Assembly: GCA_937906475.1 (NCBI GenBank)
Contig: CALCZA010000057.1
Span: 1-64,000 of the forward strand
Direction: 5' to 3'
Source of the DNA: an uncultured bacterium
GTDB lineage: Bacteria > Planctomycetota > UBA1135 > UBA2386
Length of the DNA stretch: 64,000 bases
Part shown: one piece after another, positions 11,156-48,446 of the stretch
Layout of the letters: each line of letters begins with the position of its first letter
Position numbering within the stretch: position 1 is the first letter of the stretch
The notes under the pieces: model-generated
What the model saw: the letters and a program-made list of their open reading frames with translations, nothing else
Databases searched by the model: none
What the model was told of the DNA's origin: nothing
Position numbers and translations under genes: made by a program

Positions 11156-12442
11156 ATGATCACTCGTCAAATGGAGGCCCAACAGACTGACTCCGAATCC
11201 GAGTCCCCTGATCCCATTCGGGTGGATTGGGAAGCATTTTACCGGAGCTATCGCAAGCCCGGTTACCTGAGCGGATTTGAAATCGTCAACAAGCTTGGCG
11301 GTGGCATGTTCGGTCTGGTCTTCAAGGCGCGCAAGGAATCGATCGGCAAGGACTACGCGATCAAGTTCCTCAAAGTCGATGACGACAGCGTCCGCGATGC
11401 CGTCATGCGCGAGATCGACAACGTGTCGTTCTTCGCCCAGATTGACCATCCGAACCTGGTGTCGATCGAAGACAAGGGCACCGTCGATGGCATCCCTTAC
11501 TTGGTGATGAGTTACGCCGGTGACGGGACGTTGCAGAAGCGTCTCCAGCAAGGTGACATGACCCGCGAAGATGCGTTGCACATCTTCGTGCAGGCCGCGC
11601 GCGGCGTGCAGGCGTTGCACGATCACTCGTTGGTGCACTTCGACCTCAAGCCGGCCAACATTTTCATCAAGGGCGATGTCGCACGCGTCGGGGACTACGG
11701 TCTCAGCAAACTGGTCTCGGCGTCGCGCAACTCGTTGAGCTTTGGTCGCGGCACGCCCTACTACATGGCGCCCGAAATGCTGCAGCGTCGTGGCGACGCC
11801 CGCAGTGACGTCTACTCGCTCGGTATTGTGCTCTACGAATGCCTCTACGGTGAGGTGCCGTTCCGCGGCGATTCCGAATGGGAAGTGCTGCGCAAGCACG
11901 AGACGGCGCAGCCTGAGTTCCCTGCTGGAGCGCTGGCTGGCGACCGCGAAATCATCCTTCGCTGCCTCGAGAAACAGCCGGAGGACCGCTTCCAGTCGGC
12001 GGCGGATTTGCTCCGTGCACTACAGGCGCCAGTCACTCTTGGTGAGAGCATGATGTTCTCGCAAGGAGGCGTGGGTTCTCCCGCGCGACCTGCGCCGCCG
12101 CCACCCGCGTCAGCGCTGCCTCTGTCTGCCGCCGAACCGCCGCCGATTCCGTCGGGTTCGGGCCAGTTTGGCTCGATGGGCATGCCGTTCCATGACGACC
12201 AGCGACCAGCCGGTGTTGTCGGGTTCTTCGTGCGGATCATCATCACGCTGATTGAGGTAGCCGTTCGTCTCGCTCTGCTGCCAATCAAGGCCGTCAGTAG
12301 CTTTGCCAGCACAGGCTTCGGCTGGCTGCTCCGCCTACCGGTCCGCTTGCTCGGCATCGCCGCCCAATTGGTTGGCGTGCTGCTCGTGATTGCGTTGATC
12401 CTGCTGGTGATCGTGGCCGTGTTCACGATGGTCGTGGTCTGA
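11156..12442 (+). CDS. Membrane-anchored serine/threonine protein kinase
   Basis: 428 residues. The kinase domain covers about residues 41-310. It has glycine loop LGGGMFGLVF (47-56), ATP lysine K70 in AIKFL, the helix-C glutamate E86, catalytic loop HFDLKPAN (161-168, D163 and N168), DYG (180-182) in place of DFG, and APE (205-207). The usual HRD is HFD, so this is a non-RD kinase, which typically does not depend on activation-loop phosphorylation. A Pro/Ala-rich linker follows, then two hydrophobic stretches that should place the C-terminus in the membrane. ATG 11171 is an alternative start. The context, an FHA-like protein upstream and an ECF sigma factor downstream, suggests one signalling pathway. 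Confidence 0.9.
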   Translation: MITRQMEAQQTDSESESPDPIRVDWEAFYRSYRKPGYLSGFEIVNKLGGGMFGLVFKARKESIGKDYAIKFLKVDDDSVRDAVMREIDNVSFFAQIDHPNLVSIEDKGTVDGIPYLVMSYAGDGTLQKRLQQGDMTREDALHIFVQAARGVQALHDHSLVHFDLKPANIFIKGDVARVGDYGLSKLVSASRNSLSFGRGTPYYMAPEMLQRRGDARSDVYSLGIVLYECLYGEVPFRGDSEWEVLRKHETAQPEFPAGALAGDREIILRCLEKQPEDRFQSAADLLRALQAPVTLGESMMFSQGGVGSPARPAPPPPASALPLSAAEPPPIPSGSGQFGSMGMPFHDDQRPAGVVGFFVRIIITLIEVAVRLALLPIKAVSSFASTGFGWLLRLPVRLLGIAAQLVGVLLVIALILLVIVAVFTMVVV

Positions 12443-12523
12443 TTCGCCGCCAGCTAGAGGTTCTTCACACTAGTCAATTCGCACTGCGCCACGAGGGCGC
12501 GAGTAGTCGCGGCCCGCCGCCGC

Positions 12524-12529
12524 TATCAT
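12524..12529 (+). promoter_or_regulatory. Candidate -10 box of ECF sigma gene
   Basis: TATCAT in a GC-rich setting, 10 bases before ATG 12540. It would give a very short leader. No clear -35 is visible. Confidence 0.35.
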
Positions 12530-12539
12530 GTTTGTGGCC

Positions 12540-13193
12540 ATGAGCGAACAAGTGCACGACATTGGTAATCTGCAGGCGATGGATGAGACCGCCTGGGCAG
12601 AGTTGCAGGAGGACTATTATCGCCGCGTGTACTTCTACGTGAAGCGCTACCTCGGTGACCATCAGACCGCCGAAGACCTGACTCAGGATGTGTTCCTCGG
12701 AGCGCTGCGCGGCATCGCCAGCTTCGACCCGATCTACAGCCTCGATCAGTTCTTGTTCGGGATCGCGAAGAACCGAGTCATCGACCATTACCGGAAGCAC
12801 AAGCTGACGTTGATGCCGTCGAAGCCGGACGGGGACAGCGACAAGAGCCAGGTGTGGCTCGAGAACCTCGCCCCGGACAAGGCACCGTTGCCAAAGGAGC
12901 GCGTCGTCAAAGCCGAGGACGAAGCACGTCAACGCAAAGTGCTTGGGCAGATCCTGCGCGAACATGTTAGTGAACTCTGGTCAGCTGGCGAGTTCCAGAA
13001 ACTGATGGTGCTCGAATACCTGTTCGTGATCGGCGGTCGCAACAAGGACGCAGCGATGCGCTTTGGCATCTCTGATGAGAAGACGGTTGCCGGCATCAAG
13101 TTCCGCGCGGTAGAGCGACTGCGTGGCATGGCTAGGCAGCACGATCCGAACCACTCCCTATTCATTGGCCTTTGGAGCCCGGGGGCACGATGA
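12540..13193 (+). CDS. ECF RNA polymerase sigma factor
   Basis: 217 residues. Region 2 includes RRVYFYVKRYLGDHQTAEDL followed by TQDVFLGAL and AKNRVIDHYRKHK, which bind core polymerase and the -10 element. Region 4 lies in the last 80 residues (KLMVLEYLFVIGGRNKDAA and SDEKTVAGIKFRAVERLR), a helix-turn-helix for the -35 element. An in-frame ATG at 12528 is possible, but 12540 gives the normal length. The stop overlaps the start of the next gene (ATGA at 13190-13193), typical of sigma/anti-sigma pairs. Being next to a kinase gene suggests control by phosphorylation, as known for some planctomycete ECF groups. Confidence 0.88.
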   Translation: MSEQVHDIGNLQAMDETAWAELQEDYYRRVYFYVKRYLGDHQTAEDLTQDVFLGALRGIASFDPIYSLDQFLFGIAKNRVIDHYRKHKLTLMPSKPDGDSDKSQVWLENLAPDKAPLPKERVVKAEDEARQRKVLGQILREHVSELWSAGEFQKLMVLEYLFVIGGRNKDAAMRFGISDEKTVAGIKFRAVERLRGMARQHDPNHSLFIGLWSPGAR

Positions 13194-13504
13194 GTGACCA
13201 AGAAGATTCCAAGCAAGCTGAACTCGATGCGAAGCTGGCGTTCACCGTTGCGACCGTCTGGCGCAGCGAGCGTATTTCCTGTCCGCACCCACACGTGCTG
13301 CAGAGTTGGTTGCAGGGAGGGTTGGACGGCGGCGCCGCTGAGTTCGTGGCATTCCACCTGCAGGACAGTGAATGTCCGTATTGCAATGCCACGGTCGATG
13401 ACCTGAAGGCTCGTGACGACGAGGCAAAATTGCCCGTGCTGAAAGACATGAAGGATCGATTGCTGCGATCCACGATCGCCGAGCTGAAGAAGGCCAAGTC
13501 CTAG
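13190..13504 (+). CDS. Small zinc-finger-like protein, possible anti-sigma factor
   Basis: 104 residues, starting inside the sigma factor stop codon (ATGA). The core contains CPHPHVLQSWLQGGLDGG followed by FVAFHLQDSECPYC. This resembles the zinc anti-sigma fold (C-x-x-H ... leader helix ... H-x(n)-C-x-x-C), though the spacing H-x5-C-x2-C differs from the usual H-x3-C-x2-C. No membrane segment is present, so it would be a soluble regulator. Translational coupling to the sigma gene supports an anti-sigma or sensor role, which remains inference. Confidence 0.65.
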   Translation: MSDQEDSKQAELDAKLAFTVATVWRSERISCPHPHVLQSWLQGGLDGGAAEFVAFHLQDSECPYCNATVDDLKARDDEAKLPVLKDMKDRLLRSTIAELKKAKS

Positions 13505-13711
13505 GCCAGCCACATACCTCCGGGTGGATGCTCTCGGTGGGGATGGTTGCGAAATCGGGAGTGGCGCCTGGGTTGCCGGTCGATCTCGCGGTCTAGGACT
13601 CGAATCCGTGGAAGAATATTGAAGTCGAGCCAAATAGTCGGCGAGTTGGTTCGCAGGTGGGGTTGGAGCCAGTGAGAGCTCCCTGGCCTCCCTACTAACG
13701 GAAACGACGAC

Positions 13712-14536
13712 ATGATTCGCAAGACCTTCAAGATGCTGCTGATTGGCAGCGCGGTGCTCGGTGGGGCAGGCTTCCTGTTCCTTGGTACTGACTTCCCCAG
13801 TTACGTTGGCTCGGTTGCTAGCTCAGTGCGCGAAAGCGTGACGGAGCAGATCCCAGTCGAAATTGAGCTCAAACGCGCGGACAACCTGATCCGTCAGATC
13901 TCGCCACAGATCAATAAGTGCAAGCTGGACCTGGCTCGCGCCGAGGTCGACCTGAGCTCGCTACAGGATTCCATCCAGCACCTCGAGAAGGTGGTGACGG
14001 CCGAAGAAAAGAAGCTGAAGCTTGGTGCCGCGTTACTGCGCGAAGACGCTCCAAATGGCGTTCGCTTAGCTGCTGACTTCGGCGCTCGCCGCCGCGTCAG
14101 CGCCGACCTTGGTCGCACCAAGGACTCCTACGTCAACAATCGCGCGATCCTGAAGACCAAGCTCAAGCTTGTCGCTCGCCAAACGCGTTCAGTTGAGGCG
14201 GCCAAGGAGCGCTTGAACGCGGTTCGCTACGAGCGCGTCGCGCTTGAAGATCAGGTTCGCGCTCTCAAAACGCAGCAGATGCAAGTGGAGGCCATGGCCG
14301 CCGCTAGCGACCGCTTCGACCTCGATAGCACGGCCTTGAGCCAAGCGAAGGAAGTTATCACCGGCGTGCGCAAGCGCCTCGATGTCGCTCAGCGCATGCT
14401 TGAGAACGACATCGCCTTCACCGGCGAGCCGGTCGAAGGCGTCGAGAATCGCAACGTGATCAAGGAAATCGACGAGTTGTTCGCTCCGGACACCCGTTCC
14501 ACCGCGGTCCGCATCGAGTTGCCGGCCACGCGCTGA
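13712..14536 (+). CDS. Membrane-anchored coiled-coil protein
   Basis: 274 residues. One hydrophobic helix at about residues 8-25 (MLLIGSAVLGGAGFLFLGT) anchors the protein with the rest outside. Residues about 50-215 are continuous heptad-like helix (DLSSLQDSIQHLEKVV, then VRYERVALEDQVRALKTQQM), reminiscent of PspA-like proteins but without a recognisable family match. The last 60 residues are less structured. It follows the ECF sigma block after 207 bases and may be one of its targets. This is inference. A strong hairpin ends the unit. Confidence 0.7.
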   Translation: MIRKTFKMLLIGSAVLGGAGFLFLGTDFPSYVGSVASSVRESVTEQIPVEIELKRADNLIRQISPQINKCKLDLARAEVDLSSLQDSIQHLEKVVTAEEKKLKLGAALLREDAPNGVRLAADFGARRRVSADLGRTKDSYVNNRAILKTKLKLVARQTRSVEAAKERLNAVRYERVALEDQVRALKTQQMQVEAMAAASDRFDLDSTALSQAKEVITGVRKRLDVAQRMLENDIAFTGEPVEGVENRNVIKEIDELFAPDTRSTAVRIELPATR

Positions 14537-45573: not shown

Positions 45574-47448
45574 ATGGGCTTTATAAACGTCGCCGAGCGT
45601 ACGATTAACGCCAAACTCGTCTACTACGGGGTTGGTGTTGGTGGCAAGACTACCAGTCTGCAGCGGGTGCATGGCATCTTCTGCCCGCGTAACGAAGTCC
45701 AGCTGGTATCGATCAATACTGAAGAGGACTCGACGCTGCTGTTCGACTTCTTGCCGATCAACCTCGGCTCGGTCGGCGGCTTCAAGGTGCGCATCCAGGG
45801 CTTCACCGTTCCCGGGCAGCCCAAGTACAAGCAGATGCGTAAATACGTACTGCAGGGTGCCGACGCGGTGGTCTTTGTTGTCGACAGCCAACGCAGCCGT
45901 CTCGAAGAGAACCTCGAATCGTTGCGCAGCATGCGCGAGCACTTGCGCGAACAGGTTGGCATGTCTGAGGACATCCCGATCATCGTGCAATACAACAAGC
46001 GCGATCTCGATGACCTGTTGAGTGAGGAAGAACTCGATCAGCACTTCAAGTTCCGCGACGACATCGTCACATTCCCGTCGGTGGCAACGGAAGGCCACGG
46101 CGTGTTCGAAGCGTTCGTTGAAGCGGCGGTCACGCTTGTCGAGCGCAAGGTTGCCCACTACGGCCTAGCGCAGAACGAAGAGGCGCCGTGCGATGTTGCC
46201 GAAGAGGTGCGCTCGAAGCTGTGGGATATCTGCGATGAGGTGCGACGCGCTCGCGAGATCGTTCCGGTCGAAGACCTTCCGCAAACGCGCGTAGTGTTGT
46301 CCGATGGCGTTCCTGATCCCGTCACGAATTCTATGGGGGATGCGTCCAGCGACCTCGAATTGATGGATTCGGCACCATCTCGTGTGCCTGAAGATGCTGG
46401 CGTAGAGTTGCCTCCCGGTGACGAGGAGTTTGATTTCGGCTACGAACTGCGTGAGAGTTCCGGCGTCATCCTCGGTTCGAGTGTGCCGGTAGCCGGTGAC
46501 GAGGTGTTGGCGAACTCGGTGCTCGGGGATCCTTCAAACGAGGTGCTCTCCGATGAGGATCTCGACCTCGATCTATCTGCGGGCTTGGTCTCGTACCACG
46601 GCGAAGCGGTCGAAGAACCGGAGTCGGCGTTGCTTGCCAAGACCGTTCGTTCGAACCTCGAACTCGCGAGTCGTTTTGGCGAACTCGATGAGCAACGGCT
46701 ACTACTCGAACGCAAGGTCCACGAGTTGGTTGACATCGCGCAATGCACGGTGCACGACCTCAATCGCCCGATTAGTGCTGTGCGCCTAATGCTGTCGACG
46801 CTCAACAAGGGCTACTTCGGTGAGATGACCGAGATCCAGAGCCAAGCGGTTGAGAACGGCCTGATGGCGGTTAACCAAATGGAACGTCTGGTGAGCGACC
46901 TGCTCGACAGTTCGCGCCTCGACCACGATGGCGTTAGCCTCGACTTTGGCAGTTGCGACCTGACGCCGTTGGTCGCCGAAGTGCTGACTACGCTGCGCTA
47001 CGAACTCGATGAACATAGCCTGTTGGTCCGCGTCGAACCGCTGCCGGTTGTCATGGCCGACGGCTGGGCGTTGCAAAAGGTGCTGATGAACCTGCTCGGC
47101 AACGCGATCTCCTTCCGCGCCATCGAGCGCACGCCGTTGGTGCGGATCTTCTGCGAAGAGAGCGAGGACACCTGGTCACTCGGCGTCAGCGATAACGGCA
47201 TCGGGATTCCTGAAGTCGATCGCGAACGCCTGTTCCGCCGCTTCGAACGCGGTTCGAACGCTGGCGGCATCAGCGGTACGGGTTTGGGCCTGCACATCGT
47301 CAAGGAAATCGTGCACGGCCACGGCGGCACGGTTTCATACGAGAGCGAAGTCGACCAGGGCACCACGTTTTGGCTGCATTTGCCGAAGAACCCGGTGCAT
47401 GCCGAGCACTCGCCGTTCACCGAGACGGCGGCGCGAGCGGACCTTTAG
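45574..47448 (+). CDS. Fusion of MglA-type small GTPase and histidine kinase
   Basis: 624 residues. Residues 1 to about 200 are an MglA-like GTPase: P-loop GVGVGGKTT (19-27), STLLFDFLP (53-61), TVPGQ (78-82) and NKRD (141-144). TVPGQPKYKQMRKYVLQGAD matches the MglA switch region. Residues about 200-365 are an acidic, Ser/Pro-rich linker. The rest is a histidine kinase: H394 in HDLNRPISAVR, the N box NLLGNA with N510, DNGIGIP (540-546) and GTGLGLHIV (568-576). MglA drives polarity and motility in gliding bacteria and normally works with a separate MglB. No receiver domain or MglB gene is adjacent. The two halves in one chain suggest GTP-controlled phosphorelay. Confidence 0.9.
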   Translation: MGFINVAERTINAKLVYYGVGVGGKTTSLQRVHGIFCPRNEVQLVSINTEEDSTLLFDFLPINLGSVGGFKVRIQGFTVPGQPKYKQMRKYVLQGADAVVFVVDSQRSRLEENLESLRSMREHLREQVGMSEDIPIIVQYNKRDLDDLLSEEELDQHFKFRDDIVTFPSVATEGHGVFEAFVEAAVTLVERKVAHYGLAQNEEAPCDVAEEVRSKLWDICDEVRRAREIVPVEDLPQTRVVLSDGVPDPVTNSMGDASSDLELMDSAPSRVPEDAGVELPPGDEEFDFGYELRESSGVILGSSVPVAGDEVLANSVLGDPSNEVLSDEDLDLDLSAGLVSYHGEAVEEPESALLAKTVRSNLELASRFGELDEQRLLLERKVHELVDIAQCTVHDLNRPISAVRLMLSTLNKGYFGEMTEIQSQAVENGLMAVNQMERLVSDLLDSSRLDHDGVSLDFGSCDLTPLVAEVLTTLRYELDEHSLLVRVEPLPVVMADGWALQKVLMNLLGNAISFRAIERTPLVRIFCEESEDTWSLGVSDNGIGIPEVDRERLFRRFERGSNAGGISGTGLGLHIVKEIVHGHGGTVSYESEVDQGTTFWLHLPKNPVHAEHSPFTETAARADL

Positions 47449-48038: not shown

Positions 48039-48446
48039 CTAGAGCGAGCGCAGGAATCGCAGCAAGGCACCCTGGCCGGCCCGCGAACTGGGATGGAACC
48101 CAGAGAGCTTCGCGGTCCGTAGCACGGGGCGATTGTTCAGGTGCGGACCGAACGTTGCCATCGCCAGATCCGGGTCGATGTTGCCTAGCGAGTGGACCAC
48201 CTTCTTGGCGATGCCAGGCGGCACGTCGGGTCCGATGATCAGGTAGCCATGGCCGCCTGAGTTTAAGAACGACGTTCTGGCGGCCCGCAAACTGTCGACT
48301 GCATCGACATGTACACCTTTTAGACGCAGCGCTGCGAGCAGCGCTTGCATCGGCGTCGGGTCGGCAAGCAGGGCGAGCACTTCGATGCTTTGCAGGTCTG
48401 GTTCGGGCAGTGTCATGAGCGAGTGCGGCACCAGATTCTTCGTCAC
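48039..48446 (-). CDS. Receiver-like small protein, uncertain
   Basis: 135 residues from GTG 48446; ATG 48416 is also in frame. The pattern IEVLALLADPTPMQALLAALRLKGVHVD then SGGHGYLIIGPDVP resembles a CheY-type receiver with alternating strands and helices. No DD pair or active Asp can be assigned with confidence. It could be a decayed receiver or a short partner of another kinase. Confidence 0.5.
   Translation of the reverse strand: MTKNLVPHSLMTLPEPDLQSIEVLALLADPTPMQALLAALRLKGVHVDAVDSLRAARTSFLNSGGHGYLIIGPDVPPGIAKKVVHSLGNIDPDLAMATFGPHLNNRPVLRTAKLSGFHPSSRAGQGALLRFLRSL

Follow-up and report, generated by a model that had tools for sequence, protein, structure and literature searches.

The window, by which we mean the whole 64,000-nucleotide stretch of DNA analysed here (contig CALCZA010000057.1 of an uncultured planctomycete), carries a gene in which an MglA-type G domain and a HisKA-type histidine kinase form a single chain (Table 1). 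Re-translation returned one ORF of 624 amino acids, in agreement with the preliminary description of the locus, and all the motifs named there were recovered: GVGVGGKTT (residues 19–27), TVPGQ (78–82), NKRD (141–144), H394, N510, DNGIGIP and GTGLGLHIV. The Pfam matches to the protein all pass the curated cut-offs and comprise Arf (66–172, E 5e-9), HisKA (393–451, E 1e-8) and HATPase_c (499–606, E 5e-27). In phmmer searches of PDB sequences, residues 1–191 correspond to solved MglA structures (E ~1e-46) and residues 391–607 to HK853 (E 4e-27). The N-terminal half thus has the Ras-like G domain of the MglA family with its G1, G3 (TVPGQ, as in Group 1) and G4 motifs, while the C-terminal half has the phospho-acceptor histidine of a DHp domain and the N, G1 and G2 boxes of HATPase_c.

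Table 1. Features of the MglA–HisKA–HATPase fusion gene (positions in the window)
Feature	Position	Strand	Basis
MglA–HisKA–HATPase fusion gene	45574..47448	+	single uninterrupted ORF, 624 aa plus stop
MglA-type G domain, residues 1–197	45574..46164	+	phmmer to MglA structures, Foldseek, conservation
P-loop GVGVGGKTT, residues 19–27	45628..45654	+	G19, G21, G23, G24, K25, T26 and T27 invariant (29/29)
Ser53, site of the MglA intrinsic arginine finger (R53)	45730..45732	+	ungapped alignment with M. xanthus and T. thermophilus MglA
G3 motif TVPGQ, residues 78–82, with catalytic Gln82	45805..45819	+	invariant (29/29)
G4 motif NKRD, residues 141–144	45994..46005	+	invariant (29/29)
Predicted helix after the G domain, residues 205–228	46186..46257	+	AlphaFold model and family alignment
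Acidic, predicted disordered linker, residues 229–348	46258..46617	+	low pLDDT, composition, no invariant residue
Connector helix, residues 350–386 (LLxxxVxSNLELAxRFGELDExRLLLERKV)	46621..46731	+	profile and AlphaFold
DHp (HisKA) domain, residues 391–455	46744..46938	+	Pfam HisKA 393–451
His394, predicted phospho-acceptor	46753..46755	+	H394, D395, L396 and P399 invariant in 27/27 covering members
Arg398 at H+4, usual place of the phosphatase Thr/Asn in HisKA kinases	46765..46767	+	
HATPase_c catalytic domain, residues 459–606, with N510, DNGIGIP and GTGLGL	46948..47391	+	Pfam, Foldseek (HK853, ZraS)
C-terminal tail with conserved P607, H612 and S613 ('HSP')	47392..47445	+	alignment, invariant

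Structure prediction, which the preliminary description had recommended, gave the expected modules. The AlphaFold model, which drew on 24 natural homologues, shows a G domain (1–197), a helix (205–227), disorder from about 229 to 348, one long helix (350–412) that begins with the connector and continues into the DHp, and the CA domain (459–604); its Foldseek matches are histidine kinases (HK853, ZraS) and MglA. The confidence of the model is modest (pLDDT 69, pTM 0.40) and switch I (36–49, 52–57) is poorly defined, hence no domain–domain interface is claimed. The linker, previously put at about 165 residues, is real and indeed acidic, but it is more accurately seen as a disordered stretch of 120 residues with flanking helices. 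Residues 229–348 contain 29 D/E versus 3 K/R and have a pLDDT below 50 nearly throughout, and not one position between 198 and 348 is invariant in the 24-member alignment. The protein has no transmembrane segment (maximum 19-residue hydropathy 1.14). Past the catalytic domain, the tail (47392–47445) carries an invariant 'HS', mostly HSP or HSPV, in 24/24 aligned members.

Upstream of the fusion lie an AhpC/TSA-like (thioredoxin-like) gene on the minus strand, a double ABC ATPase and an unassigned ORF, and downstream a tRNA-Lys (minus strand), a tRNA-His, a small gene (minus strand) and an isoprenoid-related block. This gene order is largely kept in the family, but the synteny belongs to the whole chromosomal region and points to no partner, so the neighbours were dismissed as candidates. 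The preliminary description had reported that MglB, receiver and motility genes are missing alongside; the gene context bears this out for MglB and motility genes, and no response regulator adjoins the fusion either, although a degenerate receiver-like fold is encoded nearby (48039–48446, minus strand) without being specifically linked to it. The product of this gene is a small conserved protein (48–64% identity in relatives) that has no Pfam match; its AlphaFold model (pLDDT 87) finds mostly receiver domains among the best Foldseek matches (best E 2.6e-4), and a glycine apparently occupies the usual phospho-Asp position, so that it is likely to be a pseudo-receiver. The gene is present in 15 of the 16 genomes searched in families f1 and f3, often unlinked to the fusion. 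It was rejected as the cognate receiver because it is unlinked elsewhere, occurs without the fusion and is mostly absent from the fusion-bearing family f6.

The genome also encodes a canonical MglA on another contig, with an intact arginine finger and located between two Robl_LC7 (MglB-type) genes (L152 5080–7262, G000:C136). The fusion departs from the arrangement usual in the MglA family, a single-domain GTPase with an MglB gene nearby, as it is multidomain and the Robl_LC7 genes were found on that other contig. The canonical MglA carries a long Ala/Pro-rich C-terminal tail that is hydrophobic at its end (19-residue hydropathy 2.5), and tails resembling it occur in the planctomycete MglA proteins L048, L072, L079, L089 and L102; their sequences suggest membrane-anchored forms of MglA.

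The fusion is present in 30 of the 34 genomes searched of the window's family (three of the 30 are cut by contig ends) and in two further families of the same order, namely f3 (its one genome) and f6 (all seven genomes), while a search of relatives' genomes did not find it in families f2, f4, f5, f7 and f8. The named records that carry it are MAGs of Planctomycetota, save one labelled simply as an uncultured bacterium. Besides the window, 37 genomes of the order have the two halves as one chain, counting four in which one half lies at a contig end or the halves lie on separate contigs, and to these are added several other families and clades, at 44–77% identity over the full length. Two species of the window's genus do without the gene, which is therefore dispensable. 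In one of them (G002) neither the fusion nor the ABC gene is present in the syntenic region, where different genes occur; at the corresponding site (L192 11900–13800) we note an esterase-like gene (plus strand, 11929–13158) and a small lipoprotein-like gene (minus strand, 13143–13769).

Across the 24 full-length members of the alignment, identity to the window protein is 45–77%. All 29 of 29 members have the P-loop, TVPGQ and NKRD unchanged, and the phospho-His, N-box and G-box residues, among them H394, D395, P399, N506 and N510, are invariant in all 27 members that reach the kinase, which indicates selection on both halves. Of the two, the G domain is the more strongly conserved, with 77 of its 197 positions invariant in 24 members and a mean column conservation of 0.84, versus 0.69–0.74 for the kinase. 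The concern raised at the outset, that a frameshift, read-through or assembly error had joined two genes, is ruled out by the recurrence of the same one-chain architecture in dozens of independent assemblies; we found nothing in its favour and regard its probability as negligible. The fusion is a real and functional gene family rather than an artefact.

MglA of Myxococcus xanthus and Thermus thermophilus hydrolyses GTP by means of its own Arg53 and Gln82, both of which are positioned by MglB (PMC6785124). While 71 of 72 other MglA proteins have the arginine, it is found in 0/32 members of the fusion family, which have Ser, Ala or Gln at this position without exception (32/32). Among the nearest other members of the GTPase clade described below, Arg53 is kept in 8/9 and only L050 differs, with Thr; the stand-alone GTPases L178 and L179 have Ser as well. 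The arginine finger beside the G2 threonine that marks Group 1 is thus replaced by S53 in the window protein and by S/A/Q throughout the fusion family, so the G domain belongs to the MglA family without being a typical Group 1 MglA. It does not fall into Groups 2–5 either, where Thr replaces Arg and G3 reads GTPGQ, given its invariant TVPGQ and the Ser/Ala/Gln at 53. The loss of R53 is not in itself proof of inactivity or slow hydrolysis, because MglA groups 2–5 lack this residue and CvnD9 hydrolyses GTP (PMC4316618).

A second substitution affects the kinase. The phosphatase activity of HisKA proteins needs a Thr or Asn four residues after the histidine (PMC3510030; PMC11502775), and single substitutions at this position abolish it (PMC3510030). 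The E/DxxT/N motif is missing from the fusion, where H+4 is Arg398 (HDLNRP) and, in every family member, Arg or Lys. The other HisKA kinases of the window's genome have T/N/S here in 16/16 readable cases (the control covered the loci of 26 HisKA matches, with the motif unreadable in 9), and all other planctomycete MglA–kinase fusions have T. From the sequences we would predict lower off-rates in both halves of the protein. The serine at 53, the lack of a phosphatase Thr/Asn, the separate canonical MglA with its two MglB-type genes and the wider fused clade are all omitted from the preliminary description.

In a tree of 113 G domains the fusion family is supported at 0.999 and nests within a planctomycete GTPase clade (0.957). 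The clade contains MglA–GAF–HisKA–HATPase proteins (placed in the tree through L120 and L122), MglA–HisKA–HATPase proteins of another type (L050/L191), stand-alone GTPases and two proteins whose C-terminal part is unassigned. Across the phylum, 25 of the 392 genomes sampled yielded a GTPase scoring above the threshold for this clade, and in 15 of the 25 it is fused to a kinase. The Acidobacteriota relatives L052 and L202 keep the G motifs and combine a HisKA-like segment (in L052 at a Pfam E of 6e-4, below its cut-off) with a degenerate C-terminal part. Two further Acidobacteriota proteins, L197 (495–2615) and L198 (495–2495), have, after an MglA-type G domain, about 500 residues resembling a GAF region and a degenerate kinase-like C-terminus, and neither matches the kinase profile of the fusion family. 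For the f33 fusions L124 and L127, a GAF domain looked plausible by eye but is not claimed, as Pfam finds none in L127.

A profile of the connector (residues 350–386) matches all MglA–kinase fusions found, with or without GAF, in two phyla, including the Acidobacteriota fusions whose kinases are degenerate; several of these matches are individually weak (E 0.0003–0.04), yet in every case the match falls between the G domain and the GAF or DHp. Among 4547 ORFs, the genome's other HisKA loci included, it has no match outside MglA fusions at E < 0.05. A Rosetta-stone test detected no kinase gene flanking the clade's stand-alone GTPases (1.5 kb flanks; 10 kb for L046).

What could such a protein do? 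The reading that we favour, at a probability of roughly 0.45, is that of a soluble orphan HisKA-type kinase with a built-in MglA/Ras-type G domain as its N-terminal input. It is favoured by the domain order, by the continuous connector–DHp helix, by the restriction of the connector to MglA fusions and by the intact kinase residues; the G domain occupies the position of the sensor domain in HisKA kinases. GTP loading, set by external exchange factors or GAPs, would move the switch regions, and this movement would free or re-dock the acidic linker and the connector helix such that the DHp dimer takes up its autokinase state. H394 would then be phosphorylated and hand the phosphoryl group on to a response regulator whose gene lies elsewhere. 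With both the MglA arginine finger and the kinase phosphatase residue absent, slow decay would be expected of the GTP state as well as of the phosphorylated regulator, and the protein would behave as a latch, biased towards the on state and dependent on other proteins for its reset. In M. xanthus an allosteric pocket of MglA is the site of action of the MglB C-terminal helix and possibly of the Glu-rich RomR region (PMC6785124), and one may speculate by analogy that the helix and acidic linker of the fusion act likewise in cis. Whether there is a distinct class of bacterial signalling proteins, G-protein-gated histidine kinases in which an MglA-derived switch acts in cis via a dedicated connector helix, with the fusion family as its latch-like form that has lost arginine-finger hydrolysis and the kinase phosphatase, the two normal off-reactions, in concert, is a more tentative proposition, and the odds are somewhat against it.

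Not everything fits a G domain that gates the kinase. The 120-residue linker, if disordered as modelled, argues against simple rigid coupling, and the strong conservation of the G domain would equally fit a role as output, as would the degenerate kinases of the Acidobacteriota relatives with their retained G motifs. The signal could then run the other way: the kinase half would sense or integrate signals and control how exposed the G domain is or which nucleotide it carries; with the G domain as output, this amounts to the logic of the conservon or AGPS systems in one chain. The output proposed for conservons is indeed the GTPase and not a response regulator (PMC4316618), and no response regulator adjoins the fusion. 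Yet the invariance of H394, N510, the G boxes and the H-box is what one expects of a kinase active in phosphotransfer, the kinase half of the window-type fusion has no sensor domain of its own, and the domains follow the input order of a sensor kinase. We consider the reverse direction somewhat less likely than the favoured reading.

Alternatively, the G domain might merely position the kinase. Without its arginine finger it would be largely GTP-bound and could bind a polar or membrane effector of the MglA system, the linker being a mere tether. MglA-GTP of M. xanthus acts by localisation (PMC9481161), the same genome encodes the canonical MglA flanked by two roadblock genes, the surface of the G domain is highly conserved, and a long, acidic and disordered linker would suit the purpose. 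But a pure tether leaves the conservation of the connector helix across fusion types and phyla unexplained, and kinase fusions also occur among clade members whose arginine finger is intact; targeting of this kind seems distinctly less probable than either direction of signalling.

The G domain of the fusion is about 42–45% identical over 190 residues to Group 1 MglA as defined by Wuichet and Sogaard-Andersen (M. xanthus, T. thermophilus; PDB 6h17, 5ymx, 3t12) and has the same P-loop, TVPGQ and NKRD together with the conserved Q82 and T54, but differs from Group 1 in the attached kinase, in S/A/Q for R53 and in the lack of an adjacent MglB gene. The kinase half resembles HK853, PhoR, KdpD and ZraS in having a DHp and a CA domain and the H, N, G1 and G2 boxes; in contrast to these, the putative input is a GTPase, and H+4 is Arg/Lys, not Thr/Asn.

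A related system is that of the conservons, or actinobacterial G protein systems (AGPS), which likewise pair an MglA-family GTPase lacking the arginine finger with a HisKA-like kinase (PMC4316618, PMC13343842). There, four separate genes of an operon encode the membrane kinase CvnA, the roadblock protein CvnB, CvnC and the GTPase CvnD (PMC4316618, PMC13343842). The fusion locus does not have this set of kinase, roadblock, CvnC and GTPase genes: the fusion is one soluble chain with no CvnB or CvnC alongside, and CvnD belongs to Group 2 (GTPGQ, Thr replacing Arg, NxFD) whereas the fusion has TVPGQ and NKRD. Full-text searches, whose coverage is incomplete and leaves most subscription papers outside, found no published MglA–kinase fusion, so the preliminary view of this architecture as one without a known description stands for the searchable literature. 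Coupling of an MglA-family GTPase to a histidine kinase is therefore known from the separate proteins of the conservons, while for the fused single chain no description was found. How MglA-type GTPases signal to two-component kinases, and the reverse, is still being asked for Myxococcus and for the conservons, where the partners are separate; the one soluble chain makes cis coupling of a G protein and a histidine kinase directly approachable. The planctomycete MglA–GAF–HisKA–HATPase proteins (L120, L122, L186–L190) share the GTPase clade (0.957) and the connector helix with the fusion, but have a GAF domain between connector and DHp and retain both R53 and the H+4 Thr. They offer the natural comparison, as the GAF-type fusions keep both off-switch residues and the window-type fusions have lost both.
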